A program made the position numbers and the translations under genes. Below, piece after piece: positions 20,292 through 61,411 of a stretch of DNA of 64,000 bases. The stretch spans positions 434,001 through 498,000 of the forward strand of contig NC_087073.1 of assembly GCF_026151205.1 (NCBI RefSeq). The letters are read 5' to 3'. Numbering within the stretch: position 1 is the stretch's first letter; each line of letters opens with the position of its first letter. Origin of the DNA: Bolinopsis microptera. Taxonomy: Eukaryota > Ctenophora > Tentaculata > Lobata > Bolinopsidae. Below the pieces are notes generated by a model. That model was not told where the DNA came from. It worked only from the letters and a program-made list of their open reading frames with translations, and did no database searches.

Positions 20292-20488
20292 TCACTTGAT
20301 TCCCGCTGCCGCTAGCTCTTCATCCGTAATCCCACTCTTCAGTGTACGTCGGAGAGACTTCCTTTGAGCCATTTTAGATTTGAGGCGCTGCCGAGTTCTG
20401 CGCCTAGGTCCATCAGGTTGCAGGGCACTCTCCAGGGACAGGGCTACCTCTTCAGGGGTGTCTGGTGTTTCTACTGCTGCTGGTGCTG
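20292..20488 (-). CDS. FHOD: FHOD terminal exon (DAD tail and stop)
   Basis: The acceptor CTATTTTTCCAG is followed by 197 nt beginning in phase with the C left by the previous exon and ending at TGA (20294-20292). The product runs from a Pro/Ala/Thr-rich link through EEVALSLESAL to RKSLRRTLKSGITDEEL, the basic-plus-acidic tail by which FHOD proteins hold themselves inactive. Confidence 0.88.
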
Positions 20489-23400
20489 CTGGAAAAATAG
20501 AATCCAGTTATTAATATTAAGGGAATGACATATTTAAACAACAATATAAAGATACCAGATGGGCGGAGGAGGAAAAAGAAATAGGTGTTATGTTGTGTAA
20601 TGTTGTGTAATGTTGTGTAATGTTGTGTAATGTTGTGTAATGTTGTGTAATGTTGTGTAATGGTGTGTAATGTTGTGTAGTGTTGTGTAATGTTGTGTAA
20701 TGTTGTGTAATGTTGTGTAATGTTGTGTAATGTCGTGTAATGTTGTGTAATGGTGTGTAATGTTGTGTAGTGTTGTGTAATGTTGTGAAATGTTGTGTAG
20801 TGTTGTGTAATGGTGTGTAATGTTGTGTAATGTTGTGTAATGTTGTGTAATATTGTGTAATGTTGTGAGGGACTGATCTGTAAAAAGGGGCTGATTAATG
20901 ATCTGGTTGACATGTAACTAGGTGAGACCAATAGTCGTTGTACCAGTGCGCGGCTTTAGCTGTAGTCTACAAGTAAAGCCGCACACTGGTAACGAGTTAA
21001 CGACTATTAGCTCGGTCTCAACTATTAGCTCAGTCTCACCTATTAGCTCGGTCTCACCTATTAGCTCAGTCTCACCTATTAGCTCGGTCTCACCTATTAG
21101 CTCAGTCTCACCTATTAGCTCAGTCTCACCTATTAGCTCGGTCTCACCTATTAGCTCAGTCTCACCTATTAGCTCGGTCTCACCTATTAGCTCAGTCTCA
21201 CCTATTAGCTCAGTCTCACCTATTAGCTCAGTCTCACCTATTAGCTCAGTCTCACCTATTAGCTCGGTCTCACCTATTAGCTCAGTCTCACCTATTAGCT
21301 CAGTCTCACCTATTAGCTCGGTCTCACCTATTAGCTCAGTCTCACCTATTAGCTCAGTCTCACCTATTAGCTCGGTCTCACCTATTAGCTCGGTCTCACC
21401 TATTAGCTTGGTCTCACCTATTAGCTTGGTCTCACCTATTAGCTCGGTCTCACCTATTAGCTCAGTCTCACCTATTAGCTCGGTCTCACCTATTAGCTTG
21501 GTCTCACCTATTAGCTTGGTCTCACCTATTAGCTCGGTCTCACCTATTAGCTCGGTCTCACCTATTAGCTCAGTCTCACCTATTAGCTCAGTCTCACCTA
21601 TTAGCTCGGTCTCACCTATTAGCTCGGTCTCACCTATTAGCTCAGTCTCACCTATTAGCTCAGTCTCACCTATTAGCTCGGTCTCACCTATTAGCTCGGT
21701 CTCACCTATTAGCTCAGTCTCACCTATTAGCTCAGTCTCACCTATTAGCTCAGTCTCACCTATTAGCTCGGTCTCACCTATTAGCTTGGTCTCACCTATT
21801 AGCTCAGTCTCACCTATTAGCTCAGTCTCACCTATTAGCTCGGTCTCACCTATTAGCTCGGTCTCACCTATTAGCTCAGTCTCACCTATTAGCTCAGTCT
21901 CACCTATTAGCTCGGTCTCACCTATTAGCTCGGTCTCAACTATTAGCTCAGTCTCACATATTAGCTCAGTCTCACCTATTAGCTCAGTATCACCTATTAG
22001 CTCGGTCTCACCTATTAGCTCAGTCTCACCTATTAGCTCGGTCTCACCTATTAGCTCGGTCTCACCGGTTTCAACATGATCACATAATTTCATGAACAGG
22101 GGAGGCTGCACATCAGTATAAGAAACCTCATTTTTATGTCAAGAAAATGGTGAAACGTTTTTGTTCATCCGAGTTCCGAGCTCGACACCTTAATCAAACT
22201 CAAATCGTTTAAGCGTAATTCGGATAAATGTTTCATGAAATTAAAATCAAGTGAGTTACTGACACAAACGAATTACACATCAGTAAAATTCATGTAGTTT
22301 ACGGAATTTGTAAAACCCACACGATCTATTCCCGAACACGCTTACCCCTGCTCTCTCGAAATGAAGGCATCGAGAATGACATTCCTACGATTGGTTAGAA
22401 ATTGATTAACTCATCGGTTGTAAAAACCATGCTCCCAATAAAAAAGAATGCACATCCTGATATAAATTATCAAGTTATGGCTTGAAGTATGAACTATGGC
22501 AACTTGCCATAATGGCAACTTGGCAACTTGCCATAATGGCAACTTGGCAACTTGCCATAATGGCAACTTGGCAACTTGCCATAATGGCAACTTGGCAACT
22601 TGCCATAATGGCAACTTGGCAACTTGCCATAATGGCAACTTGGCAACTTGCCATAATGGCAACTTGGCAACTTGCCATAATGGCAACTTGGCAACTTGCC
22701 ATAATGGCAACTTGGCAACTTGCCATAATGGCAACTTGGCAACTTGCCATAATGGCAACTTGGCAACTTGCCATAATGGCAACTTGGCAACTTGCCATAA
22801 TGGCAACTTGGCAACTTGCCATAATGGCAACTTGGCAACTTGCCATTATGGCAACTTGCCATAATGGCAACTTGGCAACTTGCCATAATGGCAACTTGGC
22901 AACTTGCCATAATGGCAACTTGGCAACTTGCCATAATGGCAACTTGGCAACTTGCCATAATGGCAACTTGGCAACTTGCCATAATGGCAACTTGGCAACT
23001 TGCCATAATGGCAACTTGGCAACTTGCCATAATGGCAACTTGGCAACTTGCCATAATGGCAACTTGGCAACTTGCCATAATGGCAACTTGGCAACTTGCC
23101 ATAATGGCAACTTGGCAACTTGCCATAATGGCAAGGCGTACAATAATACTTACGGGATTTAGTCTTGGCAAGGAGTTTCTTAGTTTTTGGATCGATAGCC
23201 TGATTGGCACTTTCCGCTCGTTCCCGGTCAGGCCTTCCGACGTGTTTCCCGGATACCATGTTCTTAATATCTGTTATCTTTATACCTCGTGTTTTACGGC
23301 GCTCCTGGTGGATTAAGATGATTTAAAGTGTGTGTATATACGGATACCATGTTCTTAATATCTGTTATCTTTATACCTCGTGTTTTACGGCGCTCCTGGT

Positions 23401-26400
23401 GGATTAAGATGATTTAAAGTGTGTGTATTATATACGGATACCATGTTCTTAAGATCTGTTATCTTTATACCTCGTGTTTTACGGCGCTCCTGGTGGATTA
23501 AGATGATTTAAAGTGTGTGTATATACGGATACCATGTTCTTAAGATCTGTTATCTTTATACCTCGTGTTTTACGGCGCTCCTGGTGGATTAAGATGATTT
23601 AAAGTTTGTATATATGCGTATATCTGTGTGTAACTATGGTAACTAGTAGTGTAACTATGGTAACTAGTAGTATATCTGCGGCAAGTTTTCTCTTAAGACA
23701 GTGTCAGTATTGGCAAATATAAAATACTGACATTAATACATCACATAACAGGGATTTTACTCGTTACTTGCCCCCCCCCCCCCCCCCACTACATTATTTG
23801 TCTGCTAAAATACAGGTGCCGAAATAAAGTGTTACCAGGAGAATAATTACAAACTTTAAAACTTCCCAAAGTTTACAAGGTACCCAAGGTAGGTACAGTT
23901 TACAAGGTACCCAAGGTACTATACTTGGTAAACAGGTATGTTTTACAAGGTACCCAAGGTACTATACTTGGTAAACAGGTATGTTTTACAAGGTACCCAA
24001 GGTACTATACTTGGTAAACAGGTATGTTTTACAAGGTACCCAAGGTACTATACTTGGTAAACAGGTATGTTTTACAAGGTACCCAAGGTACTATACTTGG
24101 TAAACAGGTATGTTTTACAAGGTACCCAAGGTACTATACTTGGTAAACAGGTATGTTTTACAAACCTTCATTTTCTTCTTCTTCGCCTGCTCCAGTACGA
24201 CCGCTTCAATCGCTGTGCGGTACTCCAGAGCAAACTCGCTTATAATCCTACAAAACTCATCTGGTACCATGAACCTGTCAACGTACACAACAGTCAGTCG
24301 CTAGATAAGCTAGATAAGCTAGATAAGCTAGATAAGCTAGATAAGCTAGATAAGCTAGATAAGCTAGATAAGCTAGATAAGGTAGATAAGCTAGATAAGC
24401 TAGATAAGCTAGATAAGCTAGATAAGCTAGATAAGCTAGATAAGCTAGATAAGCTAGATAAGTTAGATAAGCTAGATAAGCTAGATAAGCTAGATAAGCT
24501 AGATAAGCTAGATAAGCTAGATAAGCTAGATAAGCTAGATAAGCTAGATAAGCTAGATAAGCTAGATAAGCTAGATAAGATAGATAAGCTAGATAAGCTA
24601 GATAAGCTAGATAAGCTAGATAAGCTAGATAAGCTAGATAAGCTAGATAAGCTAGATAAGCTAGATAAGCTAGATAAGCTAGATAAGCTAGATAAGGTAG
24701 ATAAGCTAGATAAGCTAGATAAGCTAGATAAGCTAGATAAGCTAGATAAGCTAGATAAGCTAGATAAGTTAGATAAGCTAGATAAGCTAGATAAGCTAGA
24801 TAAGCTAGATAAGCTAGATAAGCTAGATAAGCTAGATAAGCTAGATAAGCTAGATAAGCTAGATAAGCTAGATAAGCTAGATAAGCTAGATAAGCTAGAT
24901 AAGCTAGATAAGTTAGATAAGATAGATAAGCTAGATAAGCTAGATAAGCTAGATAAGCTAGATAAGCTAGATAAGCTAGATAAGCTAGATAAGCTAGATA
25001 AGCTAGATAAGCTAGATAAGTTAGATAAGCTAGATAAGCTAGATAAGCTAGATAAGCTAGATAAGCTAGATAAGCTAGATGAGCTAGATGAGCTAGATGA
25101 GCTAGATGAGCTAGATAAGCTAGATAAGCTAGATAAGTTAGATAAGCTAGATAAGGTAGATAAGCTAGATAAGGTAGATAAGCTAGATAAGCTAGATAAG
25201 CTAGATAAGCTAGATGAGCTAGATAAGCTAGATAAGCTAGATAAGCTAGATAAGCTAGATAAGCTAGATAAGTTAGATAAGCTAGATAAGCTAGATAAGC
25301 TAGATAAGCTAGATAAGCTAGATAAGCTAGATAAGCTAGATAAGCTAGATAAGCTAGATAAGCTAGATAAGCTAGATAAGCTAGATAAGCTAGATAAGCT
25401 ATCATGAATTCAAAAAGGTTCTTCCGATTCTGTCAAATCTAACATCTTCAGTCAGAAACAGAGAGCCGAGAGGTTTAGTTGGTTATTTGAACACTGAAAT
25501 AAGCAGTTGCACAGCGAATCTTTCACTAACGCCAAAGAAAAGGTGACATTTTAAAACTCACTTTTTTACAGGATCTATTCCAAAGTAGAGAAGTAAATTA
25601 TAATATCTGTTGGCAACCCTTTTATTCACTAGTTTCAAGATATTAATCCGCTCAGCAACCGATCGTAAAAAGGTCAACTGCTTCTGCATAATTTCGTTTG
25701 TAGAAGACGTGTGTTTGCTGGTGGAAAAATAAAGTTTTAAAATTTAATGCTAAAACGTATGCGGAGGGTAACCGTGGCGACGACACAAGATACAATTCGA
25801 AAACTATCATAACATGGAGAAAATGTGGACAACAAAACCACGACCATCATTTCTAGACTCTTCTTTAACAGCGCAACCTTCACAGGAAAAAAAGGAAATC
25901 TCGAAGTGTAAACCTTATGATGCGGAGATCTATGTGGTTACTATGTGGTTACTATGTGGTTACTATGTGGTTACTATGTGGTTACTATGTGGTTACTATG
26001 TGGTTACTACTGGTAAGTGTAAAGTAAACCTTATGATCCGGAGATCTATGTGGTTACTATGTGGTTACTATGTGGTTACTATGTGGTTACTATGTGGTTA
26101 CTATGTGGTTACTATGTGGTTACTATGTGGTTACTATGTGGTTACTATGGTTACTACTGGTAAGTGTAAAGTAAACCTTATGATCCGGAGATCTATGTGG
26201 TTACTATGTGGTTACTATGTGGTTACTATGTGGTTACTATGGTTACTATGTGGTTACTACTGGTAAGTGTAAAGTAAAAACCTTATGATGCGGAGATCTT
26301 CCCAGCTACGATCACAAAGTTGATCCATCTTCTCTAAAGTGGCGCCCACTTCGTCAAACGAGATCCGACATATTCTGTGTGTGTGTCCTATCTCCTGAAC

Positions 26401-29400
26401 AGTAAATATTGTTAATACAAAGTACAGATTAACAATTCTAACAGATCGAATTTTTTGTGGTTTTTAAGGCAAACAAAAATTTAAACAAAATTCCAACAAA
26501 TCAATCCCTTGTTCAGTTGTGGTTATATTTTATAATTTTTTTAAGGAATCATTTCTCCGATAAGTGGTGGACACTGGTAACCGATAATTTTCCACAAGGG
26601 TTGCCAGAGTATTATGAGGACAAACTGCGAGCCACCTCAGACTCAACAGCCCCCCCCCCCAGGTATTATTATATTTAGCCCCCCCCCCAATGTATTATTA
26701 TATTTAGCCCCCCCCCCCCCAAGTATTATTATATTTAGCCCCCCCCCCCCAAGTATTATTATATTTAGCCCCCCCCCAATGTATTATTATATTTAGCCCC
26801 CCCCCCAAGTATTATTATATTTAGCCCCCCCCCCCCAATGTATTATTATATTTAGCCCCCCCCCCAATGTATTATTATATTTGGCCCCCCCCCCAATGTA
26901 TTATTATATTTAGCCCCCCCCCCCCAAGTATTATTATATTTAGCCCCCCCCCCCAGGTATTATTATATTTAGCCCTCCCCCCCAGGTATTATTATATTTA
27001 GCCCTCCCCCCCCCCAGGTATTATTATATTTAGCCCCCCCCCCCAATGTATTATTATATTTAGCCCCCCCCCCCCAATGTATTATTATATTTAGCCCCCC
27101 CCCCCCCCAAGTATTATTATATTTAGCCCCCCCCCCCCCCCAATGTATTATTATATTTAGCCCCCCCCCCCAAGTATTATTATATTTAGCCCCCCCCCCC
27201 CAATGTATTATTATATTTAGCCCCCCCCCAAGTATTATTATATTTAGCCCCCCCCCCAAGTATTATTATATTTAGCCCCCCCCCCCAATGTATTATTATA
27301 TTTAGCCCCCCCCCCCCCAATGTATTATTATATTTAGCCCCCCCCCCCCAAGTATTATTATATTTAGCCCCCCCCCCAATGTATTATTATATTTAGCCCC
27401 CCCCCAAGTATTATTATATTTAGCCCCCCCCCCCAATGTATTATTATATTTAGCCCCCCCCCCAAGTATTATTATATTTAGCCCCCCCCCCCAAGTATTA
27501 TTATATTTGGCCCCCCCCCCAATGTATTATTATATTTAGCCCCCCCCCCCCAAGTATTATTATATTTAAACCCCCCCCCCAGGTATTATTATATTTAGCC
27601 CTCCCCCCAGGTATTATTATATTTAGCCCTCCCCCCCCAGGTATTATTATATTTAGCCCCCCCCCCCAATGTATTATTATATTTAGCCCCCCCCCCCAAT
27701 GTATTATTATATTTAGCCCCCCCCCCCCCCAAGTATTATTATATTTAGCCCCCCCCCCCCCCCCCAATGTATTATTATATTTAGCCCCCCCCCCCCAAGT
27801 ATTATTATATTTAGCCCCCCCCCCCCAATGTATTATTATATTTAGCCCCCCCCCAAGTATTATTATATTTAGCCCCCCCCCCAAGTATTATTATATTTAG
27901 CCCCCCCCCCCAAGTATTATTATATTTGGCCCCCCCCCAATGTATTATTATATTTAGCCCCCCCCCCCCCCCCCAAGTATTATTATATTTAAACCCCCCC
28001 CCCAGGTATTATTATATTTAGCCCTCCCCCCAGGTATTATTATATTTAGCCCTCCCCCCCCATGTATTATTATATTTAGCCCCCCCCCCCAGGTATTATT
28101 ATATTTAGCCCCCCCAGGTATTATTATATTTAGCCCCCCCCCAGGTATCATTATATTTACCACCCCCCCCAGGTATTATTATATTTAGCCCCCCCCCCCC
28201 AGGTATTATTATATTTAGCCCCCCCAGGTATTATTATATTTAGCCCCCCCCCAGGTATCATTATATTTACCCCCCCCCCAGGTATTACTATATTTAGCCC
28301 CCCCCCCCCAATGTATTATTATATTTACCCCCCCCCCCCCCCCCCAATGTATTATTATATTTAGCCCCCCCCCCCCCAAAAGGTATTATTATATTTAGCC
28401 CCCCCCCCCCCCAATGTATTATTATATTTACCCCCCCCCCCCCCCCAGGTATTATTATATTTAGCCCCCCCCCCCCAGGTATTATTATATTTAGCCCCCC
28501 CAGGTATTATTATATTTAGCCCCCCCCCAGGTATCATTATATTTACCCCCCCCCCAGGTATTACTATATTTAGCCCCCCCCCCCAGGTATTATTATATTT
28601 AGCCCCCCCCCCCCAATGTATTATTATATTTACCCCCCCCCCCCCCAGGTATTATTATATTTAGCCCCCCCCCCCCCAGGTATTATTATATTTAGCCCCC
28701 CCAGGTATTATTATATTTAGCCCCCCCCCAGGTATCATTATATTTACCCCCCCCCCAGGTATTACTATATTTAGCCCCCCCCCCCCCAGGTATTATTATA
28801 TTTAGCCCCCCCCCCCCAATGTATTCTTATATTTACCCCCCCCCCCAATGTATTATTATATTTAGCCCCCCCCCCCCAATGTATTATTATATTTAGCCCC
28901 CCCCCCCCCCGGTATTATTATATTTAGCCCCCCCCCCCCCCCCCCAATGTATTATTATATTTATTTTACCCGGTGCAGGTCCCCTTGAGTTGGGTGGTTC
29001 TGGTGCATCATGCAGGCTACGTGGTGTACCATGGTTTGCTTTTTAACTGTGTCCTTGATGTCCGCCACTTTGCTCAGAAACGTCAGCTCGAAACCGTCAC
29101 TCGTTTCCTGCGGAGGAATGTGGTTACTATGTGGTTACTATGTGGTTACTACTGGTTACTACTGGTTACTAATGGTTACTACTATTTACAACTCGAAACT
29201 GTCACACGTTTCCTGCGCAGGAATAAGTTTATCTTCTGTTTGCACGTGTGGACGCACACTTTTTGTTACATGATACCTATGATTATTATTTTTGTTTACC
29301 ACCATATTCGCTACTAAATCACTAATGAGCTATGGAAAATAAGAGCGTGTACCTGGCGGAGGAAGTTGCCAATCTCCAGAAGGTAACTAATGATGAGATG

Positions 29401-32400
29401 CAGTGTTTTACAAGATTTCAGTTCCGAGCAGCACTCCTTCAGATCCATCAGATAGTCCGCTACCTGACAGTTCATATCATAGTTAACTAATTACAACACT
29501 AATAAACTAATTACAAACACTACAACACTACAAATACATTACATTTATTGAGCGGGCAAATCCTGTCCAAACCCAGGATGCACAACATGCAGAATTTGTT
29601 TTAACTTTGTATGAAAAGCATCAATGCAATTACCTGAGAGTACATATCATACAATTAATACACTAACTTGGACCACTTGATCTGCATGGTTAAAACTTTG
29701 CAGAGAGCAATTTTGGGAAGCTGAACATTACGTCAATGCTCCTTCATAAATCAATTTACCGATAAGATTCTAGCGTACCTCGTCTTCCAAAGCGTCGAAG
29801 TCGATCATGAAAGCCCAGATGTTCAGCCTATTCCTGATATTGGGGATTACTGAAAGTGTGTACACGAACTCTTCTTCTTTGGCAAGCGGAATGTCGGGAT
29901 TAGCTAACTTGGCTTCGGTTATCTGGTTCTTCTCCTCTTCAGATGGCACCAACTTAACCAGCGACTGAAGAGGTGGGTATTTGACATTGGTATCATTTGC
30001 AAAATATAATCAATCACAGCCTCACAACACGCACTGAATGAACTGAAGAAAACCATGGTTACTACTGGTTACTACTGGTTACTACTGGTTATTACTGGTT
30101 ACTAATGGTTACTACTGGTTACTACTGGTTACTACTGGTTATTACTGGTTACTACTGGTTACTACTGGTTACTACTGGTTATTACTGGTTACTAATGGTT
30201 ACTACTGGTTACTACTGGTTACTACTGGTTATTACTGGTTACTAATGGTTACTACTGGTTACTACTGGTTACTACTGGTTATTACTGGTTACTAATGGTT
30301 ACTACCCTTACTACTGGTTACTACTGGTTACTACTGGTTACTACTGGTTACATGGGTGCTCACACTGATGCCCTCTCGAGTGATGTGGGAAGTGTCCATG
30401 TTGAGGATAGCTTGTTTGATGTGGCGCGCAGCTGGCAGATGAGGCAGCTGGAGTCCTACTGTACGGGACCTGCTGCCTTCCAGAACTCTGATGAACTTTG
30501 CCGCCGTAGATTTTTCAGTGTCCAGGGACTTACTCGTTTCTATCTTCTTTTTGGCGAAAAGAACGGCGAGTTGGTCGTAGTCGACCTTAACCTCCGGGCG
30601 CTCTCTCCATATAGATTTAGACCTGAATATAAACAGGTTCAGAACTTGAAATCTACCATAAAAATCAAATGAAGAAATGAAAACGTTATAACCTCAATAA
30701 ATTGCACAATGACAAGGTACTCATCAAACTCACTCTATTTTCGAGGCGGCGTAACCCGGAATGGTAGGCGGCAGTCCAGTCGTTTTATTTAGATTTACCT
30801 TAGACCAGAAAACTTTTACTAAATCTTTTTTGTTTGCTACTTTTCGCTTGGCTGATACACCGTCTGATTTAGAACCTGGGGCTGGCGGGGCGCCAGGAGC
30901 TCGAGGGGCACCAGGAGGTCGAGGGGCTGGTGGGGCACCAGGTGGTCGAGGTGCTGGTGGGGCACCAGGAGCTCGAGGGGCTGGTGGGGCACCAGGTGGT
31001 CGAGGGGCAGGAGGTGGAGGCGGAGCTCCCGGCGGGCGTGGGGCAGGAGGAGGGGGAGGAGCGCCTGGAAGTCTGGGTGCAGGAGGGGCACCGGGAGGTG
31101 GTGGAGGGGCAGGAGGTGCTCCAGGTGGTCTTGGAGCTGGGGGCACACCAGGTGGTCTTGGAGCTGGAGGAGCACCAGGTGCAGGTGGTGCACCAGGTGG
31201 AGGTGGTGCACCAGGGGCAGGTGCTACAGGCTGAACCGGTCTGGTTTCGATAACAGTTTTGACATTAATATCGTCTTTATCCGATAAGTCTGCAAAGTTA
31301 TGTCGTTTGATAGCAAACGAGCTGTTCGAAATATTGAAAGTGGTAGGTCGACTGAGACTGGCTGGGTCAAAGGAAGGGATCACTTCCTCATCCTCTTCTT
31401 CTAATATGCACTTCTCGTTTACCACTTCCGGCTTCTGTGAAGGGTATATATAACTAACAAGCAGAGAAATTGTTAACCTTTAAGTTAACTTTGGTTTAAT
31501 TCATTACCGAAAACGAGCAATTGACCTTAACCAGGCAGAATGCTCCAGCAGAATATATAAAATGGCTAAAAATTTAAATTTAATGAAAACCTCGTCAATT
31601 ATTCTGCCAGTATCAATAGGTTCAGATTTTCTCATGTTTTTGATAACATCAATCTTGTTTTTAAGTCTGGACCAACTATTATTGTTTGAATTTTTGAGAA
31701 TCTCGCTGTCTTTCTCCGGAAGGTCGCCCTTGTGCTGTTTCTGAGTTGCTCGGACCACCTCCTCAAACTGACGACCAACTGAGGTGGGGGTGAGTTTAAG
31801 GGGGGGGGGGGGGGGGGTGAGTTTAAAGGGGGGGGGGTGAGTTTAAGAGGGGGGGAGGGTGAGTTTAAGAGGGGGGGTGAGTTTAAGAGGGGGGGAGGGT
31901 GAGTTTAAGGGGAGGGGGTGAGGGTGAGTTTCAGGGGGGGGGGAGGGTGAGTTTAAGGGGGGGGGGGGGGGGGTGAGTTTAAGGGGGGTGAGGGTGAGTT
32001 TAAGGGGGGGGGTGATGGTGAGTTTAAGGGGGGGAGGTGAGGGTGAGTTTAAGGGGGGAGGTGAGGGTGAGTTTAAGGGGGGAGGGTGAGTTTAAGGGGG
32101 GAGGTGAGGGTGAGTTTAAGGGGGGGGGGTGATGGTGAGTTTAAGGGGGGGAGGTGAGGGTGAGTTTAAGGGGGGAGGTGAGGGTGAGTTTAAGGGGGGA
32201 GGGTGAGTTTAAGGGGGGAGGTGAGGGTGAGTTTAAGGGGGGGGGGGGAGGGTGAGTTTAAGGGGGGGGGGGGGGATTACTACAATAATCATACAATAAT
32301 CATAGTACAATATGGGACCTATAAGAAACACTAAATTCCTCCTATGTTTACTGTTAAGTCTGTCAGCTGTTTGTCAGTCAACTGGAGCTAAAAAGAGAGA

Positions 32401-35400
32401 ACGCGTCACGTGATGATACCAACGCATTCCAGTCCTCATTAACACCTATTCCTGTTGATCTATTGAATGGTCGAAGAGTTGGCAGACAACTGAACCCAAT
32501 TGAACCTAGTTCCCACGCAGTTAACAGGCACCCAATCAGCTTAATTGGGTGACCTATCAGCTTAAATCCCAAAACGACAACTGAACCCAGGTCATATCAC
32601 AACTGCACCCAAATTGAAAATACGACAACTGAACCCAACGATCGGATTTTCAGTGATATGACTGTGGTCATTATCACTATAGGATAGATCATGACCACTG
32701 TAATTTAGAGCATTGGAGCCCTGTGCTTAGCCCGGTAAAATATTAATACATACATGCTACATGAAGATTGAAGAGGTCTCCTCCTAGTCGTTGGAGTGGC
32801 CTGCATCACACACATCTCTTCTACGGTGTTCCACTAGTTTTAGCTAACTGTTTTACTGCGTCAGCGGTGCCAAACCTCATTCCCACGACCCTGACAACTT
32901 AGTAGCTGAGAAAGCAGAGTTCAGAGCAGAATTGAAGCGGAAAGCTGCCGACCAACACCTCCCAGCAACACAAAACCTCCTCACCGAAGCCTTATCTACA
33001 TGCCCATCCGAAATCAACGTGGTACTACCTAAACTAGAATCCCTCGCCAGAAATTGTCCAACGATCACGAGCAGATAAGTCCGGATCTGCCAACCACTCC
33101 GAAGCACCAACCTCAACAGACCGAAATTATAGCACTAGAAACCAGGCAGCAGCTAAACTAGAACGGTATTTGGAAACCTGTTAAACTGTTAGTGATTTCT
33201 AGTGACGATTGGGTTCAGTTGTCGTTTCAAAGTTAATTAGGTAGTCTGATTGGGTCGAAGTCCTCGTTTAAAGTTAAACATCAGTAGTATCTGTCAGTAG
33301 TGGTACAAACAAGTCACCTCTCTCTGTGTCACAGTGTCACAGTGTCACAGTGTCACAGTGTCACAGTGTCACAGTGTCACAGTGGTCCTTGGTTTTAAAC
33401 CTACTTCTATCATCTCTATGCTTCTTGTCATCATCAGACTTGATGTTGAGGATTGTTCTTCGCCTCCGCAAACGTTTCTCTGCCTTTTCCCGCCTCTCTT
33501 GTATCATAGCGATCCGAGCAGCGTCCGTCTTTTGAGGTGGTGGTGGGGGAACTACAAGATGATATGAGTTTAGAGGTGGTGGTGGGGGAACTACAAGATG
33601 ATATGAGTTTAGAGGTGGTGGTGGGGGAACTACAAGATGATATGAGTTTTAGAGGTGGTGGTGGGGGAACTACAAGATGATATGAGTTTAGAGGTGGTGG
33701 TGGGGGAACTACAAGATGATATGAGTTTAGAGGTGGTGGTGGTGGAACTACAAGATGATATGAGTTTAGAGGCGGTGGTGGTGGAACTACAAGATGATAT
33801 GAGTTTAGAGGCGGTGGTGGGGGAACTACAAGATGATATGAGTTTAGAGGCGGTGGTGGGGGAACTACAAGATGATATGAGTTTAGAGGTGGTGGTGGGG
33901 GAACTACAAGATGATATGAGTTTAGAGGTGGTGGTGGTGGGGGAACTACAAGATGATATGAGTTTAGAGGTGGTGGTGGGGGAACTACAAGATGATATGA
34001 AATTAGAGGTGGTGGTGGGGGAACTACAAGATGATATGAGTTTAGAGGCGGTGGTGGGGGAACTACAAGATGATATGAGTTTAGAGGTGGTGGTGGGGGA
34101 ACTACAAGATGATATGAGTTTAGAGGTGGTGGTGGGGGAACTACAAGATGATATGAGTTTAGAGGTGGTGGTGGTGGAACTACAAGATGATATGAGTTTA
34201 GAGGTGGTGGTGGGGGAACTACAAGATGATATGAGTTTAGAGGTGGTGGTGGGGGAACTACAAGATGATATGAGTTTAGAGGTGGTGGTGGGGGAACTAC
34301 AAGATGATATGAGTTTAGAGGTGGTGGTGGTGGAACTACAAGATGATATGAGTTTAGAGGTGGTGGTGGTGGAACTACAAGATGATATGAGTTTAGAGGT
34401 GGTGGTGGGGGAACTACAAGATGATATGAGTTTAGAGGTGGTGGTGGTGGAACTACAAGATGATATGAGTTTAGAGGCGGTGGTGGGGGAACTACAAGAT
34501 GATATGAGTTTAGAGGCGGTGGTGGGGGAACTCCAAGATGATATGAGTTTAGAGGCTGGTGGTGGTGGAACTACAAGATGATATGAGTTTAGAGGTGGTG
34601 GTGTGGAACTACAAGATGATATGAGTTTAGAGGAGGTGGTGGTGGAACTACAAGATGATATGAGTTTAGAGGTGGTGGTGGTGGAACTACAAGATGATAT
34701 GAGTTTAGAGGTGGTGGTGGTGGAACTACAAGATGATATGAGTTTAGAGGTGGTGGTGGTGGAACTACAAGATGATATGAGTTTAGAGGTGGGGTGGTGG
34801 TGGAACTACAAGATGATATGAGTTTTTTTGAGGGGGTGGTGGTGGAACTACCAAAATTTTTATGAAATTTAGAGGTGGGGGGTGTAACCCAAAACAAAAG
34901 GGTATTTAATTTAGAGGGGTGGGGGGTGGAACTAAAAAAATTATATGATTTTAGATGGGGTGGTGGTGGAACTACAAAGATGATATGAAATTTTAAAAAG
35001 GGTTGGGGGTTTTGGGTAACCCAAAAAATGATATGATTTTAGAGGGGGTGGGAGGGGGAAAAATTTCAAAATGAAAAGGAATTTAAAAAGGTGGTGGTGG
35101 GGGAAAATAAAAAATATGAAAATGATTTTTGAGGTGGTGGGGGGGGAAAAAATGAATGATTTTTGAAGGGGGTGGTGGGGGAACAAAAAGATGAATATTT
35201 TTTAAAGGGGGGTGGTGGTGGAACTACAAGAAAATAGAGTTTTTGAGGGGTGGTGGAACTTAAAAAATTATATGGTTTTGAAATTGGGGGTGGGGGAACT
35301 AACAAGATGAAAAAAGGGTTTTGAGGGGGTGGGGTTGGGAAATAAAAATAAGGTTTATGGGGTGGGGTTTTGGAATAAAGATTATAAAAAAGGCGGGGGG

Positions 35401-47400: not shown

Positions 47401-50400
47401 TGAATTTGTCCTTTCCTTAATTTATTTTAATTTTGTAGCCCTAGTAGTCTAATACTTAAGTACTTAAAAAAGAGAGATAATATTGAGAATTTTATTTTAG
47501 CGTCCTTTAGTCTAGTAAGGTGTGATTCGTCTGATTGCACAGGAATTTTGTAGCGAATATTGGCGATAATGAAATCATAGCGTCTAGTTAAGATAGTTAT
47601 GATAGTTATGATACACCTAGTTACCATAGTTACACGACAATGTTACGACAACAGGGTGTTGTAAAACTGTTTTAATTTGGAACTGCTTGATTAAATTATG
47701 GCGTCTTATGGTTACATAGAGGACATATTTTACACTACTTTGGTACTGATATCACTTTGAAAGGACTTTAACGAGATATGTCGTCACTATGACGTCACTG
47801 TGACTTTGAAAGGAAGACTGATGTGATCACCTTAGTCACTGATGACTGTGCCCGTCGTTCAAGCCAGGGTCTAATAACTTATTTAAGTTATTTATAACGG
47901 ACACTCAGATAAGAGCAAGTGGTGCTCCGAAAAGGGAATGTAGAGAATGTAGAGAAAAGACGTTCGGTAAAATTTTTCGGAAAATTTCTTTCATGAATTA
48001 ATTCTGGCAATGAGAAATGGAAATTCTAACGAGATTTCTTTCTGGCAATTTGAAGTTAAGGGGGTGTCCAGCGTGGCTCACAGTTACAGGGTTGAAACTA
48101 GAAATTTATAAATGAGAAATGATAGTCACAGCAAGTTTTAACGTAAAGTGTGCAAATCACAGTGCAAGAAAACAAAATTGCGGACGAGAAAAATACACAC
48201 ACAACGTATGATACTATCACATCCAATACTATCAGGATAACAAGGAAACTAATTTCCCTCCCTTCAAAGAAGTGTGCTTATCCGTAGAACGACTGGTCGA
48301 AACTTGAAAACTAGATTGGCCTTTATAACATGTCCACCAGGTAACCAGGTAACCAGGTAACCAGGTAACCAGGTAACCAGGTAACTAGGTAACCAGGTAA
48401 CCAAGTAACCAGGTAACCAGGTAACCAGGTAACCATGTAACCAGGTAACCAGGTAACTAGGTAACCAGGTAACCAAGTAACCAGGTAACCATGTAACCAG
48501 GTAACCATGTAACAAGGTAACCAGGTAAACAGGTAAACAGGTGACCAGGTAAACAGGTGACCAGGTAACCAGGTAACCAGGTAACCAGGTAACCAGGTAA
48601 CCAGGTAACCAGGTAACCAGGTAACCAGGTAACCAGGTAACCAGGTAACCAGGTAACCAGGTAACCAGGTAACCAGGTAACCAGGTAGATTGGCCTTTAT
48701 AACATGTCCACGGATCTTGCAGCAGAGGCGTGTTTCATGTTTGAGATGTTAGTAACAAGCTAGTTCAAAGTTTACATACGTGATTGCTTGTGAAGATGTA
48801 TATCCAGTTTCAAGGTTCCACCTAAGTTTCTACCAGTCTCTCAACCGATCAGTACACATTTAGTGAAAGATATCAACAAACAAAGTAAGACATGTGGACG
48901 GGTACGTAAATGGTCGATTTAATAAAAAATGTCATATTGTTCAATAACAATCTAAATATAAATCAATCAAACCGTGTATTTATACACAACATGTAGTACT
49001 TTATAAAGAACTACATGTTTTAGCGACCAACTGAACAATTTTTTGGCATGTAAGTTAAGCTGCCCTTTACGAATACTGCCCTCTGGGGTCTGGCAAATAC
49101 TGACGTAATGGGGACGTAAATAGAACGCCCGCTTAAACACTTACTAAATTCCTTATTAAATGAACAACTTACCCTTTCCCGAATAATGGCCAGTATCGTG
49201 TCTTTAAACCCCATGGTAGCAAGATATAGCAAGATATAGCAAGATATAGCAAGATATAGCAAGATATAGCAAGATATAGCAAGATATAGCAAGATATATC
49301 AAGATATAGCAAGATATAGCAAGATATAGCCAGATATAGCAAGATATAGCAAAGTCGTTTTGAATAGCAGATATCAGACGTACAAAAGACACGCTATACT
49401 AAGCACTATTAAACCCTAATACCTGTACTACAACGTACACTTTAAGTGGGGATTGTGTTCTATAGTAACCCGGTGCATGGTATCTATGGTAACTAGTAGT
49501 GTAACTATGGTAACTAGTAGTGTAACTAGTAGTGTAACTATGGTAACTAGTAGTGTAACTATGGTAACTAGTAGTGTAACTATGGTAACTAGTAGTGTAA
49601 CTATGGTAACTAGTAGTGTAACTATGGTAACTAGTAGTGTAACTATGGTAACTAGTAGTGTTACTATGGTAACTAGTAGTGTAACTATGGTAACTAGTAG
49701 TGTAACTATGGTAACTAGTAGTGTTACTATGGTAACTAGTAGTGTAACTATGGTAACTAGTAGTGTTACTATGGTAACTAGTAGTGTTACTATGGTAACT
49801 AGTAGTGTTACTATGGTAACTAGTAGTGTTACTATGGTAACTAGTAGTGTAACTATGGTAACTAGTAGTGTAACTATGGTAACTAGTAGTGTTACTATGG
49901 TAACTAGTAGTGTTACTATGGTAACTAGTAGTGTTACTATGGTAACTAGTAGTGTAACTATGGTAACTAGTAGTGTAACTATGGTAACTAGTAGTGTTAC
50001 TATGGTAACTAGTAGTGTTACTATGGTAACTAGTAGTGTTACTATGGTAACTAGTAGTGTTACTATGGTAACTAGTAGTGTTACTATAGTAACTAGTAGT
50101 GTTACTATAGTAACCCGGTGCTTGGTATCTAATTAATCCATTATAGCTGCATCGTGATTATCACCAAATTATGTCGTCACTTGGTGACGATATCAATGAA
50201 AATAATATATGAAACTTTAATTAATAACAATAATTATTTCTTATTAACAAGTAAGGATTTACGTACTTACAACGTACAATGTACTTACAACGTACAATGT
50301 ACTTACAACGTACAATGTACTCACAACATACTTAAAACGTACAATGTACTTACAACGTACAATGTACTTACAACGTACTTACATTGTATGCAGTTATCTG

Positions 50401-53400
50401 TAGTTTTATCTTCTCTATCACATCACTGCTTGCTTCTTTTTCCAACACTTCCTGTAACGTGTGGTATGATCAATAGAGTGATGCAGCAAAATAGATTAGT
50501 TACATTGTTTCATGGTTTCGCGAATGACGATAATTGCATATTTTTATATCCTATCGTCGAATTTCATCACTGTGATTTCATAGCCAGCATTTGTTTTATG
50601 GTTCGAACTGAATTAACAATTTCCAGAAAAAAACTACGCCACTATTTTAAATTACTAAGTGAATTGCGTCAAGCCTGTAATGATATCATATACTTCATTA
50701 TACCAGGTTATTCGTGGTGGTAACTAGTAGTAACCATGGTAACTAGTAGTAACCATGGTAACTAGTGGTAACTGATGACGATGTGTAAATTTTAAAGCCA
50801 CCCAGTAAAGCAAGAACTCAACACAAAAAAAAGAGATGTCGGGATTTAACAAGAGAACTATCAACTAAGTTTTAAACAACAGTACATTATTTGAAACAGG
50901 AATGGAGACATCTATAGTTTTACCAGCCTCAGGCTAAGGCTAAGTAAGGGATGTTGAAAACCTGATCGAAACAAAAGAAAAGCACATAAAACAAGTAGAT
51001 AATAACGGTAGATGATAAGTTGAGATCGGAGCTGGGCACTAACTGTACAACTACAGCACTTCTGATGTTCGAACAAAGGAAAGTGGCAGGCTCCGCAGTA
51101 AGTAAAAGCGTGGAAGAGAGTCTCTCTCTCTCTGTAGAAGGTGATTTAATACACGATTATTTCGCGGTAAGGTGCAACAAAAAGTAGGGCGTTACACGTT
51201 ATGCCAGTTGCACACCTTCTATTTTAAAACTACGATTATTGAGTTGAAGTGAGGTCATGACGCGATACAATACTGCGGTGTTCCTGCGAAAGATACAAAA
51301 GTTGATTCCACAAACTTTAAAATTGGTTTGAAGCGTACTGCGAAACCTGGACGTATGTGCTACTGGAAAACGAATTGAAAGTTGGTAATGAATATTAACA
51401 GAAGGCAACGTTACCATGGCAACATTTCACGTAAAACGTATCGTTGGTATGCACGAGTAGCAAAATTAACCACAGAAAAATTGTCAAAAATAGAAAGGGA
51501 CTAATTAACGACGAGTAATTATTTTCAGCCACAAATTCTAGTAACCATGGTAACTAGTAGTGTAACCATGGTAACTAGTAGTAATTCTACAGGAATAACC
51601 GTGATTTTAGCTGTGCAATGGGTACGGAGCAATAATATGTTAATAACATGACCTATACTATTGAAATAGCACTGAACTAGAGTTGAAACCACCATATAAA
51701 GTCAAAGATACAACTGTCGAATGTTTCTCTACACTTGAAATTGAGCAAGGCAGCATGATGTGTCTAATTAATAATTATCGCCGCACTAAAGTTTTTGCAA
51801 GCAGTCTGCATTTTAGTTCAATTATCGTGACATGTGCAGTGGAACAGGTTTATACTTTATTATTAAGTTGGCAACAATAAAAAAGAAGCAGAACTGCGAC
51901 GATCTGACCAGCTGATATGACAGTGCTGTTAAGTTACTCGAGTAAGCATGTACCGTTACGTTAGGGTCACTCTCTAATTTAACAGAGAACTGGATCTTGC
52001 GGACAAGGTGAACTGGATTGTAAGACCCCGGAAACCGGTTTATCAAGAAGGTGGCAGCCGACGTTTGGACATTTAGCAAGATTAGTAAAGTAATCTAGCC
52101 TAACTTACGACTAAGGTTTAGGGTGTTCATATGTTGTGGTTACTGAAGTCAATCTAACGTCATTGACAAGTTTGTTAAAAATAGCGCGCCTTGAAAACCT
52201 TGAGAAAATGAGTAGGATACGTTTATTTATCCTGAGTAAATGAAATGCACTGATGGAAACTTTCATCAAGTCTAAAAACGCATTTTCTGACGACGTGGGG
52301 CGTTTAATCCGAAATAAATTGAATCAAGCAAATTCCAGAAAAAAGTCGATTCAACTATCAAGTACATACGATACTGTAAGGTTACTATGGTAACTAGTAG
52401 TGTAACTATGGTAACTAGCAGTAAGATTCAACTATCAAGTACATACGATACTGTAAAGTTACTATGGTAACTAGTAGTGTAACTATGGTAACTAGTAGTG
52501 TAACTATGGTAACTAGTAGTAAGATTTAACTATCAAGTACATACGATACTGTAAAGTTACTATGGTAACTAGTAGTGTAACTATGGTAACTAGTAGTGTA
52601 ACTATGGTAACTAGTAGTAAGATTTAACTATCAAGTACATACGATACTGTAAAGTTACTATGGTAACTAGTAGTGTAACTATGGTAACTAGTAGTGTAAC
52701 TATGGTAACTAGTAGTAAGATTTAACTATCAAGTACATACGATACTGTAAAGTTACTATGGTAACTAGTAGTGTAACTATGGTAACTAGTAGTGTAACTA
52801 TGGTAACTAGTAGTAAGATTTAACTATCAAGTACATACGATACTGTAAAGTTACTATGGTAACTAGTAGTGTAACTATGGTAACTAGTAGTGTAACTATA
52901 ATAACTAGCAGTAAGATTCAACTATCAAGTACATACGATACTGTAAAGCCTGGTCTGTGAATAAATTAAACTTTAAAATATTACGATTCGTTTTAGCACT
53001 TAACATACGTAACTTCATTGAGTCCAGATGCTGTTGTCATGACAACAGATGCTGTTGTCATGACAACAGATGGAACGTCATGACAACAGATGCTGTTGTC
53101 ATGACAACAGATGCTGTTGTCATGACAACAGATGGAACGTCATGACAACAGATGCTGTTGTCATGACAACAGATGGAACGTCATGACAACAGATGCTGTT
53201 GTCATGACAACAGATGGAACGTCATGACAACAGATGCTGTTGTAATGACAACAGATGGAACGTCTAACATACCAGTAACAACCTTAAACACCTGCCATGT
53301 TACATGGACTGTACAACATGCCAAGATTGGAATATTTCAGCACGCATCCCATAATACAGTTATTAAATGAACTACTCACCCTTTTCCGAATAACTGTTCG

Positions 53401-54666: not shown

Positions 54667-54985
54667 CTGGGTAAAATCATATATTAAGGAGTATTTTCGA
54701 CATTATAATCTCTGAATATGTAATAGGAATTATTATTATTAACTTAAGGAGGTCAACAAAAAAATTGCGTCCATCATTTTGAAAGGTAAGAGTGATTTGA
54801 TGGCTTCGGTACCAATTAGCCGAAAAGATAACCAGCCAAATTTCCTGGATGAACACAAACAAACATTATACCATGAATAATGAATATGATCATAATGATA
54901 TCATAACAATACTTTGGTTGTACGCGCTAACTAAATCTTTGATTAATTGTTATTGTGTTAGCAGTACTGTGAGTGATTGTATAAG

Positions 54986-55165
54986 ATGAGAATGAGTGTA
55001 TTGATACTACTCCTGATGTTACTCGTAGCAGTGAGTAGTAAACCCCTCCGCAAGCAGCCAGTTAGTGAGGAACAACTCACTAAACCTCTCTCGGTGCTGT
55101 ACCCAGTGGAGGAAGTACAACCAGCAGAGAGATTCAGGGTTCGTTTTCGATTGTTGCTAGGGCAG
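54986..55165 (+). CDS. astacin exon 1: signal peptide and start of propeptide
   Basis: ATGAGAATGAGTG opens MRMSVLILLLMLLVAVSSK, a clear signal peptide, then KPLRKQPVSEEQLTKPLSV and a charged stretch. The frame meets a stop at 55194, so a donor is needed before it. GGGCAG|GTTTTT at 55165 keeps phase with the next block but is weak. Confidence 0.65.
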
Positions 55166-55225
55166 GTTTTTAAAAAATGTCTAAGTCAGAATTACTAGCT
55201 GTATTTTGTATAACGAAGTTGTAAG

Positions 55226-55363
55226 TCGCACGCCAATAAGGCTTCAACAGAACTTGGAATTGAGCCAAAAATAAAAAGCTTACAACCAGCCGTGACACGT
55301 CCAATTCCGCAGAAGCTAGGACGAAACGAGAACAGAGTTAACGAGCAGAGAAATGTAACGAAG
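55226..55363 (+). CDS. astacin propeptide exon (probable)
   Basis: In the frame of exon 1 it reads SHANKASTELGIEPKIKSL to RNENRVNEQRNVTK and ends at ACGAAG|GTGAGA. The bases after this donor (GTGAGAGTGAGGGGTGAGGA and on) copy the start of the next exon. The acceptor (TTGTAAG) is weak and the intron before it would be only 60 nt. Confidence 0.45.
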
Positions 55364-55503
55364 GTGAGAGTGAGGGGTGAGGAGCAAGATCTGGTTGACA
55401 CCTTAGTAACACTTAGTAACCCCTAGTAACACCTAGTAACACTTAGTAACACTTAGTAACACCTAGTAACCCCTAGTAACACCTAGTAACACCCTGACCT
55501 CAG
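55364..55503 (+). repeat. intron that begins with a copy of the following exon, plus a TAGTAACACC array
   Basis: The first 35 bp of this 140-bp intron equal the first 35 bp of exon 2 at 55504. Between them lie about nine TAGTAAC(A/C)CC units. Both borders read AG|GTGAGAG. Confidence 0.8.
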
Positions 55504-55633
55504 GTGAGAGTGAGGGGTGAGGAGCAAGATCTGGTTGAAGGGGACATGATCGCTCCGAGGATACAGCGACTCATACAGAGAGACGGTAAACCTGTGCTAC
55601 AGAAGGGCTCCACTACCGGACTCTGGCCTGATG
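55504..55633 (+). CDS. astacin exon 2: end of propeptide
   Basis: After CTGACCTCAG it reads VRVRGEEQDLVEGDMI, APRIQRLIQRD and GSTTGLWPD. EGDM followed by LWPDG is the usual boundary of astacin propeptide and catalytic domain. The donor is GTGGGT, leaving one base. Confidence 0.85.
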
Positions 55634-55776
55634 GTGGGTATAGTGATGAGATCAAGTCTTAGATCGCTCCGTTAGTGCGAATAAGTAGAATAAAATTCAT
55701 TTCTCCGACTAAATCCTTGCCGGTCAATCCCAATTATTTCTGTTTGGTAAAAATTCCCAAGGTTCTATTTGCCCAG

Positions 55777-55947
55777 GTCGCATCCCATATACATTTGGTT
55801 CTGGTATCACCGGATACAAGAAGGACGTTATCCAGCAAGCAATGGAGCACTGGTCGAGTCAGACTTGTTTAAAGTTTGAGAAGAAAGCCGCTGACGACGA
55901 AGATTATGTCCAGTTCTTCAGCGGAGGGGGGTGCTACTCAGATCTTG
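55777..55947 (+). CDS. astacin exon 3: N-terminal half of the catalytic domain
   Basis: RIPYTFGSGITGYKKDVIQQ, AMEHWSSQTCLKFEKKA and FFSGGGCYSDLG match the astacin strand-helix region and the first Cys of its disulfides. The acceptor is TTTGCCCAG and the donor a consensus G|GTAAGT. The last 27 bp of the exon with this donor are the seed of the 59-bp array. Confidence 0.92.
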
Positions 55948-58105
55948 GTAAGTGGTGTGTTATAAACTTCTTTATGTCAGCGGAGGGGGGTGCTACTCAG
56001 ATCTTGGTAAGTGGTGTGTTAAACTTCTTTATGTCAGCGGAGGGGGGTGCTACTCAGATCTTGGTAAGTGGTGTGTTATAAACTTCTTTATGTCAGCGGA
56101 GGGGGGTGCTACTCAGATCTTGGTAAGTGGTGTTTTATAAACTTCTTTATGTCAGCGGAGGGGGGTGCTACTCAGATCTTGGTAAGTGGTGTGTTATAAA
56201 CTTCTTTATGACAGCGGAGGGGGGTGCTACTCAGATCTTGGTAAGTGGTGTGTTATAAACTTCTTTATGTCAGCGGAGGGGGGTGCTACTCAGATCTTGG
56301 TAAGTGGTGTGTTATAAACTTCTTTATGTCAGCGGAGGGGGGTGCTACTCAGATCTTGGTAAGTGGTGTGTTATAAACTTCTTTATGTCAGCGGAGGGGG
56401 GTGCTACTCAGATCTTGGTAAGTGGTGTGTTATAAACTTCTTTATGTCAGCGGAGGGGGGTGCTACTCAGATCTTGGTAAGTGGTGTGTTATAAACTTCT
56501 TTATGTCAGCGGAGGGGGGTGCTACTCAGATCTTGGTAAGTGGTGTGTTATAAACTTCTTTATGTCAGCGGAGGGGGGTGCTACTCAGATCTTGGTAAGT
56601 GGTGTGTTATAAACTTCTTTATGTCAGCGGAGGGGGGTGCTACTCAGATCTTGGTAAGTGGTGTGTTATAAACTTCTTTATGTCAGCGGAGGGGGGTGCT
56701 ACTCAGATCTTGGTAAGTGGTGTGTTATAAACTTCTTTATGTCAGCGGAGGGGGTGCTACTCAGATCTTGGTAAGTGGTGTGTTATAAACTTCTTTATGT
56801 CAGCGGAGGGGGGTGCTACTCAGATCTTGGTAAGTGGTGTGTTATAAACTTCTTTATGTCAGCGGAGGGGGGTGCTACTCAGATCTTGGTAAGTGGTGTG
56901 TTATAAACTTCTTTATGTCAGCGGAGGGGGGTGCTACTCAGATCTTGGTAAGTGGTGTGTTATAAACTTCTTTATGTCAGCGGAGGGGGGTGCTACTCAG
57001 ATCTTGGTAAGTGGTGTGTTATAAACTTCTTTATGTCAGCGGAGGGGGGTGCTACTCAGATCTTGGTAAGTGGTGTGTTATAAACTTCTTTATGTCAGCG
57101 GAGGGGGGTGCTACTCAGATCTTGGTAAGTGGTGTGTTATAAACTTCTTTATGTCAGCGGAGGGGGTGCTACTCAGATCTTGGTAAGTGGTGTGTTATAA
57201 ACTTCTTTATGTCAGCGGAGGGGGTGCTACTCAGATCTTGGTAAGTGGTGTGTTATAAACTTCTTTATGACAGCGGAGGGGGGTGCTACTCAGATCTTGG
57301 TAAGTGGTGTGTTATAAACTTCTTTATGTCAGCGGAGGGGGGTGCTACTCAGATCTTGGTAAGTGGTGTGTTATAAACTTCTTTATGACAGCGGAGGGGG
57401 GTGCTACTCAGATCTTGGTAAGTGGTGTGTTATAAACTTCTTTATGTCAGCGGAGGGGGGTGCTACTCAGATCTTGGTAAGTGGTGTGTTATAAACTTCT
57501 TTATGTCAGCGGAGGGGGGTGCTACTCAGATCTTGGTAAGTGGTGTGTTATAAACTTCTTTATGTCAGCGGAGGGGGGTGCTACTCAGATCTTGGTAAGT
57601 GGTGTGTTATAAACTTCTTTATGTCAGCGGAGGGGGGTGCTACTCAGATCTTGGTAAGTGGTGTGTTATAAACTTCTTTATGTCAGCGGAGGGGGGTGCT
57701 ACTCAGATCTTGGTAAGTGGTGTGTTATAAACTTCTTTATGTCAGCGGAGGGGGGTGCTACTCAGATCTTGGTAAGTGGTGTGTTATAAACTTCTTTATG
57801 TCAGCGGAGGGGGGGTGCTACTCAGATCTTGGTAAGTGGTGTGTTATAAACTTCTTTATGTCAGCGGAGGGGGGTGCTACTCAGATCTTGGTAAGTGGTG
57901 TGTTATAAACTTCTTTATGTCAGCGGAGGGGGGTGCTACTCAGATCTTGGTAAGTGGTGTGTTATAAACTTCTTTATGACAGCGGAGGGGGGTGCTACTC
58001 AGATCTTGGTAAGTGGTGTGTTATAAACTTCTTTATGTCAGCGGAGGGGGGTGCTACTCAGATCTTGGTAAGTGGTGTTTTATAAACTTCTTTATGTCAG
58101 CGGAG
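55921..58105 (+). repeat. 59-bp array of an exon end plus 5' splice site, about 37 copies
   Basis: Each unit holds GCGGAGGGGGGTGCTACTCA, GATCTTG, the donor GTAAGTGGTG and TATAAACTTCTTTATGTCA. Copy one is the real exon 3 end. Each later unit keeps the donor and also has a pyrimidine-rich ATGTCAG that could serve as a 3' splice site 26 nt before the donor. Copies are almost identical. Confidence 0.95.
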
Positions 58106-58325
58106 CTGAGGGGGGGTGCTACTCCTTTATAAACTTCTTTATGACCGTCGCGTGTGATCCCTGATAGTCTGAGCTCGGCCTTATCTCAGAGTCCATGTAA
58201 TAAAAGCGACATTTTGTTTTAAGTTATTGCAGAACTCTGAGATATTTTATTACATGTAATAAAATCGACATTTTGTTTTTAGTCATTGCAGAAAATGTAA
58301 ATGTAAAACTGTATACTCTCATAAG
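58106..58325. other. end of astacin intron 3; about 75-bp tandem duplication
   Basis: TTTTATTACATG...AATAAAA(G/T)CGACATTTTG is present twice at 58195-58290 before the acceptor CTCATAAG. Confidence 0.7.
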
Positions 58326-61400: not shown

Positions 61401-61411
61401 CCTTGTTACAA

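Follow-up and report, generated by a model that had tools for sequence, protein, structure and literature searches.

Tandem repeat arrays crowd the splice sites of a formin gene (FHOD) and an astacin gene within a window of 64,000 nucleotides from the ctenophore Bolinopsis microptera (C2:434001-498000; positions given without a chromosome count from the first letter of this window). This closeness is probably due to the combination of tandem duplication everywhere in non-coding DNA, short introns, and selection at the exon edge. Tandem duplications would arise and expand throughout the non-coding DNA of the genome; introns would be short by default (the median length is 172 bp for the 57 array-free introns of the sample described below), such that any new array would lie near a splice site; and selection on coding sequence would halt arrays at the exon edge. 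A duplication overlapping the border could be tolerated where the outermost splice site, meaning the first donor or the last acceptor, still gives the correct mRNA. Since the outermost copy would suffice, further copies would end up in the intron, generating a structure described elsewhere as a "mirage". A first-pass annotation of the window had reported the crowding and had proposed that tandem repeats are preferentially seeded at exon-intron borders, with introns growing from their ends. The observation holds in the main, whereas we consider the proposed seeding unlikely.

Tandem duplication around splice sites

We obtained an independent set of introns by searching the genome (264,652,675 bp, 232 contigs) for CCT chaperonin, myosin head and kinesin genes, and retaining the 30 best loci of each family. 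After merging, these loci formed 50 stretches totaling 209,881 bp, with an array cover of 8.3%, and included 94 introns between neighboring exon hits. Removal of 10 introns with poor junction scores and of one identical copy left 83 introns from 35 stretches, and arrays were present in 26 of the 83. For each 24-mer position in the sampled introns and in FHOD, we looked for a second copy within 1.5 kb. The frequency of duplicated 24-mers after the donor was flat, at 2-3 of 79-83 per step from +6 to +96. On the exon side of the donor, we observed no duplicated 24-mers (0/83) from -84 to -18 and a single one (1/83) at each of -12 and -6; before the acceptor, values ranged from 1 to 5 of 80-83. 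Overall, 7 of 1660 exonic 24-mers were duplicated, as compared to 79 of 1658 intronic 24-mers. There was thus no peak of duplicated 24-mers at the borders of the 83 sampled introns, and duplication stopped at the exon. The profile for FHOD was similar at a higher level: values were 0-1 of 11 in the exon and increased to 4-6 of 11 between +12 and +36. The lack of a border peak, together with near-zero duplication in exons, argues against borders as the preferred seed of arrays and suggests that selection at exon edges would suffice.

Duplications that span an exon-intron border do exist, as the first-pass annotation implied, and they favor border seeding to some extent. Border sequence was copied into the adjoining intron at 7 of the 196 borders examined (3/22 for FHOD, 2/8 for astacin and 2/166 for the sample). 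In the same direction, the array in a 437 bp intron of a kinesin gene on C12 (the C12_14832325 stretch) begins exactly with the first intron base, and each of its 13-bp units, GTGAGGTTAATTA, opens like the donor (GTGAGG). Against border seeding, however, only the two sampled borders out of 166 were duplicated.

The distances from arrays to splice sites give an answer that depends on the null chosen. Arrays and their coordinates were called with Tandem Repeats Finder (TRF), and distances in the window were measured to the splice sites of the FHOD and astacin models. Arrays occupy 8 of the 11 FHOD introns. Of their 16 outer ends, 9 fall no more than 25 nt from a splice site, as compared to 2.3 expected from uniform placement within introns, and 0 of 5000 shuffles reached 9 (the observed number is 10 of 16 once two edges, at 28965 and 29096, are extended by eye). 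FHOD is the gene in which the pattern was first noticed, and is therefore unable to test it. In the sample, 12 of 52 ends are equally close to a splice site (25 nt or less), as compared to 6.5 expected from uniform shuffling (P 0.007), indicating that closeness to splice sites is not confined to the window. Both excesses would be expected from border seeding. Uniform shuffling is nevertheless too lenient, because introns as they stand owe part of their length to arrays and, in at least one case (FHOD intron 1), to a transposon-like insert, and we rejected it as the sole null. In a short-intron null, the ancestral free length was capped at 150, a value of our choice, and a duplication was allowed to overlap the exon. 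With this capped overlap null the excess in the sample was lost, both for arrays scoring at least 40 (12/52 versus 14.5 expected) and for those scoring at least 50 (11/44 versus 12.4 expected); at a score of 80 the numbers were 8/24 versus 6.8 expected. Without the cap, 11/44 compared to 7.1 expected at a score of 50 (P 0.04). Leaving out the array-rich kinesin gene on C12 gave 7/36, as compared to 3.3 expected under uniform placement (P 0.02) and 9.6 under the capped null. The earlier statement that a random spread would not give such distances is correct for uniform placement, which both FHOD and the 83 sampled introns exceed; the sampled introns match the capped overlap null.

Several observations weigh against the explanation that we favor. 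For strong arrays (score 80), the uncapped overlap null leaves a clear excess (8/24 versus 3.4 expected, P 0.003), and the excess in FHOD survives even the capped null (10/16 versus 5.6 expected, P 0.002). Six of the 10 introns dropped for poor junction scores have an array across the assigned border or within 29 nt of it; with the dropped introns restored, the count rises to 17/64, as compared to 10.0 expected without the cap (P 0.004) and 17.6 with it. All of these numbers are small, and it was we who set the cap.

We also considered whether the arrays reflect regional saturation, since the window lies 434-498 kb from one end of a 23-Mb chromosome, and minisatellites could be everywhere in this region except in exons. 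Arrays cover 35% and 49% of the two sampled stretches that lie closest to an end (0.36 and 0.77 Mb), as compared to a mean of 7% beyond 2 Mb, and a 21-bp repeat family on C1 is found within the first 0.93 Mb in all but six listed places. By contrast, array cover showed no significant trend over the 50 stretches (rho -0.15, P 0.30), three of which are within 2 Mb of an end, such that a chromosome-end effect on array density is suggestive and not significant. Moreover, saturation would account for the density of arrays but not for units that hold exon bases. We therefore view it as a reasonable explanation that is, on balance, somewhat improbable.

Gene models and arrays at their exon borders

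The FHOD model lies on the minus strand and comprises 12 exons and 11 GT-AG introns in a single frame, with 810 codons to the stop. The FH2 domain (Pfam E=1.9e-64, residues 300-677 of 810) is matched in exons 4 to 10 (30364..30622, 29779..29964, 29353..29463, 28970..29107, 26282..26394, 25562..25717 and 24166..24274), and an alignment to the FH2 domain of diaphanous continues through the junctions from exon 4 to exon 11 (23154..23304). The model also includes exon 2 (31591..31778), exon 3 with the proline-rich FH1 repeats (30734..31434), and a last exon that carries the stop (20292..20488). Exon 1 of the model (33405..33528) is an open frame whose acceptor, 33529, is placed by its AG; no exon upstream of it was found. 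The astacin model lies on the plus strand and has 5 exons encoding 429 aa with astacin and ShK domains. Exon 1 (54986..55142) is an open frame, and is followed by exons 2 (55251..55363), 3 (55504..55633) and 4 (55777..55947), and by exon 5 (58326..59044), which encodes the C-terminal part of the astacin domain and the ShK domain and is supported by domain matches. An alignment to BMP1 spans the exon 4/5 junction at donor 55948. These coherent models agree with 12 of the 13 splice sites proposed in the first-pass annotation; the other, donor 50382, matches no supportable exon and is located 4.6 kb before the astacin ATG.

The arrays named in that annotation are real and were recovered by TRF, and most of the reported distances were reproduced. 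On the minus strand, an array of 24-bp units (22492..23134) lies 19 nt from FHOD donor 23153 (previously about 18), an array of 43-bp units (23899..24163) lies 2 nt from donor 24165, and the 9-bp GCTAGATAA array (24300..25401) lies 25 nt from acceptor 24275 (previously 24). Similarly, a TGGTTACTAC array (30056..30351) is 12 nt from donor 30363, a GTGTCACA array (33326..33384) is 20 nt from donor 33404, and a 39-bp array (33530..35310), also present in the other gene copy, abuts acceptor 33529 at 0-1 nt. Arrays overlap donors 26281 and 55948 and acceptor 23305. Three distances call for comment. A G-rich array (31783..32275, minus strand) is indeed close to acceptor 31779, but at 4 nt rather than 18. 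The 29-30-bp C-rich array that reaches donor 28969 (26648..28965, minus strand) is 30 nt away according to TRF, which ends it at 28939, and about 4-6 nt away once a final incomplete unit is included by eye. The array said to overlap acceptor 29108 is 13 nt from it according to TRF, yet a copy of the exon border is present beyond the array. The description of the units as unrelated is correct only in part: a GTAAC/GTTAC core is common to several of them, and two FHOD introns have TGGTTACTAC in common.

The repeated unit itself includes exon bases at several borders. At astacin donor 55948, a 59-bp unit with 30 bases from the exon and 29 from the intron, including the donor GTAAGT, is present in 37 copies (55918..58105, plus strand). 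All 37 units counted were matched by GATCTTG/GTAAGTGG, a pattern that includes the donor, and when each of the 37 donors was joined in turn to exon 5, the catalytic sequence was kept only from donor 1. At FHOD acceptor 23305, a 91-bp unit with 55 exon bases is present in 4.1 copies (23250..23622, minus strand). At donor 26281, border copies alternate with the 11-bp CTATGTGGTTA minisatellite in a compound array (25908..26299, minus strand), the outer direct repeats of which (25904-25931 and 26272-26299) are identical at 26 of 28 positions. Acceptor 29108 and at least 21 exon bases are contained in direct repeats (29084-29119 and 29189-29224, 32/36 identical) on either side of a TGGTTACTAC array (29084..29224, minus strand). 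A second compound array, with a 98-bp unit in which border copies alternate with a 21-bp minisatellite (52348..52948, plus strand), has outer repeats identical at 32 of 32 positions. Outside the window, a kinesin gene on C5 has a two-copy form at a donor (53 bp, including 11 exon bases), and a border-spanning repeat is found at an acceptor of the C12 kinesin gene.

Such structures may have formed by two routes. In a local route, the border stretch would duplicate and multiply, as the 59-bp and 91-bp arrays (37 and 4 copies) and the two 53-bp kinesin copies suggest. In an insertion-like route, a dispersed GTAAC/GTTAC minisatellite would come to lie between two copies of its target; a target that contains a splice site would leave a doubled border, and exchange between the copies could then give rise to compound arrays. 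The gene models, the border-containing units, the copy-number differences between gene copies, the flat duplication profile and the direct repeats are observations; from these we infer the order of events, the use of the outermost splice site, and selection as what gives arrays their sharp edge.

The number of border copies differs between copies of the FHOD gene. Partial copies of the FHOD region, in mixed orientation, are found at C2:1-18380, C2:172462-178089 and C2:189602-193862, and may be unmerged haplotypes or segmental duplicates/paralogues. A second FHOD copy has three border copies at acceptor 29108, as compared to two in the window. The exon-1 donor, 33404, is single in the window and doubled in the second copy (C2:7433-7886), with the two donors 121 nt apart and 16 exon bases included in the duplication; this two-copy case appears to be a fresh product of the local route. 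Acceptor 23305 has four border copies in the window and one, with 2 mismatches, in a further fragment at C2:176885. About 846 bp of extra sequence begins 5-12 nt past the exon-3 donor of the second copy; we rejected it as a donor array, as a pattern search gave one match there. FHOD intron 1 contains a transposon-like dispersed repeat (about 32480-33255) with at least 11 other copies in the genome and, among the matches listed, none in the second gene copy, constituting an insertion difference. Near-identical pairs of kinesin genes with equal FH scores lie close together on the same chromosome at C11:11303567 and 11341653 and at C13:5067999 and 4981178; either recent duplication or haplotypes that were left unmerged may explain them.

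Array lengths and border copies might be false if long reads were misassembled or haplotypes not merged. Consistent with this, second and third partial FHOD copies are on the same contig, and positions 34800-46000 decay to homopolymer-rich, frame-broken sequence around degraded array units, a pattern suggesting that the consensus of this repeat-rich part is poor. This region spans about 12 kb in the window and about 5 kb in the second copy. By contrast, the border copies have in several cases diverged from one another (32/36, 26/28 and 75/79 identical), the units vary, the frames are open, and kinesin genes outside the window carry border copies as well, making an assembly artefact very unlikely.

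The window contains several other features. An 18-bp array of CTATTAGCTCGGTCTCAC (20922-22066) is preceded by what appear by eye to be inverted arms ending in a CTATTAGCTCGGTCTCAC unit; the array may represent the multiplied end of a foldback element. Two long arrays called by TRF (59930-61409 and 62969-63997) have one 43-bp unit in common, a reverse-transcriptase fragment of 356 aa (PF00078, DUF6451) is located at 61867-62937, and an open frame of 739 aa at 13462-15681 matches NERD nuclease-related and NPHP3-type P-loop domains.

Minisatellites between direct repeats and a candidate new intron

For 7 of 79 arrays, flanking direct repeats exceeded the 99% level of mismatched flanks, and a GTAAC or GTTAC core is common to these arrays. 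Direct repeats bracket 6 of 20 GTAAC-core arrays, as compared to 3 of 220 other arrays and 0.1% of mismatched flanks; the contrast was stable over nine choices of cut-off. The class was defined after looking at the bracketed arrays, a point that weighs against our favored explanation. The compound arrays at 25908 and 52348 were scored as misses, since their copies fall inside the TRF array. Among GTAAC arrays, 5 of 20 are flanked by short direct repeats of at least 7 nt, as compared to 2 of 220 among the remaining arrays; repeats of 5 nt are uninformative, with the null already at 8%. The bracketing repeats are 26 to 79 bp long with 89-100% identity, and include coding bases for four genic arrays, those at FHOD acceptor 29108, FHOD donor 26281, the C12 kinesin acceptor (75/79) and astacin 55364-55503. 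On the plus strand of the window, a ACCAGGTA array (48312..48711) is bracketed by perfect 26-bp direct repeats (48312-48337 and 48686-48711), and the 21-bp GTAACTAGTAGTG array (49456..50131) by repeats identical at 30 of 31 positions. We looked for an empty site corresponding to 48336 and found none; the other copy ends before that position.

The bracketed array in the astacin gene is a candidate new intron of 140 bp (55364..55503, plus strand). Its 10-bp minisatellite, ACACCTAGTA, is flanked by 37-bp direct repeats (55362-55398 and 55502-55538) that are identical at all 37 positions and have AGGT at the left end. Unspliced read-through of the array would lead to a stop after 110 residues, whereas predicted splicing of 55364-55503 (AAG/GTGAGA to CTCAG/GTGAGA) would continue the frame as NVTK/VRVRGEEQDL. 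Judged from the repeats and the frame, this looks like a newly made intron. Near-identical copies of the intron at other loci, as expected of introner-like elements, were not found: among the matches listed, the astacin gene matched only itself, and the other genome matches to this query covered only the array part (q484-599).

We tentatively suggest that GTAAC-core minisatellites actively generate introns in this ctenophore by inserting at new sites and duplicating a long target. Insertion into an exon at AGGT would give a ready-spliced intron in a single step, as at 55364-55503; insertion at a splice site would give a mirage, which exchange between the target copies could then enlarge. This is possible rather than probable, but the bracketed minisatellites are the part of our observations worth following.

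Known systems and implications

A minisatellite in the human 6-16 gene reportedly repeats a splice donor, with a usable donor in each unit; it is said to have been described as alternative splicing in a single gene. The border-spanning structure that we observed is of a known kind, and the suggestion in the first-pass annotation that no such system had been described does not stand: in the mirages of amphioxus, minisatellite-like units span the exon-intron border on the intron side, at donors and acceptors, many units retain AG/GT, and copy number varies between haplotypes (PMC3087553, PMC3902484). The genes involved are Adh3 and globins, with troponin C and PGBD5 added by the second of these reports (PMC3902484). 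Border-spanning units at astacin donor 55948, at FHOD 23305, 29108 and 26281, at the C5 kinesin donor and at the C12 acceptor resemble these mirages, as does the retention of the splice signal in 37 of 37 astacin units. Copy number differs between the FHOD gene copies, which may be haplotypes or paralogues. The Bolinopsis cases differ in belonging to another phylum, in reaching a higher copy number (37), and in that a dispersed minisatellite separates some of the border copies, a feature not described in the accessible text of the amphioxus reports. The literature searched, in which coverage of subscription journals was thin, contained no mirage or minisatellite case from a ctenophore.

The candidate astacin intron can be compared with two proposed mechanisms of intron gain. 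One is tandem duplication of a segment containing AGGT (Rogers model; Hellsten 2011, cited in PMC4974935; also PMC3443670). The interval 55364-55503 similarly takes AG/GT from both copies of a duplicated exon segment and preserves the reading frame; by contrast, the astacin copies are not adjacent, and with a minisatellite array between them the intron does not derive from the exon segment alone. The other is repair of staggered double-strand breaks, associated with intron gain in Daphnia (cited in PMC3443670), which likewise involves an insert with flanking direct repeats; here, however, a tandem array forms the insert, and the repeats, at 26-79 bp, are not short.

Even if the arrays have no preference for borders, the short, array-free intron, and not the present intron length, must serve as the yardstick for how near repeats lie to splice sites. 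The row of 37 identical astacin donors provides a natural test of how the spliceosome chooses the first. How introns originate and lengthen has long been debated, and recent cases are few. Should the bracketed minisatellites be insertions, introns at several stages, with two border copies, three, or many, would be present together in this genome, making the process datable and testable.

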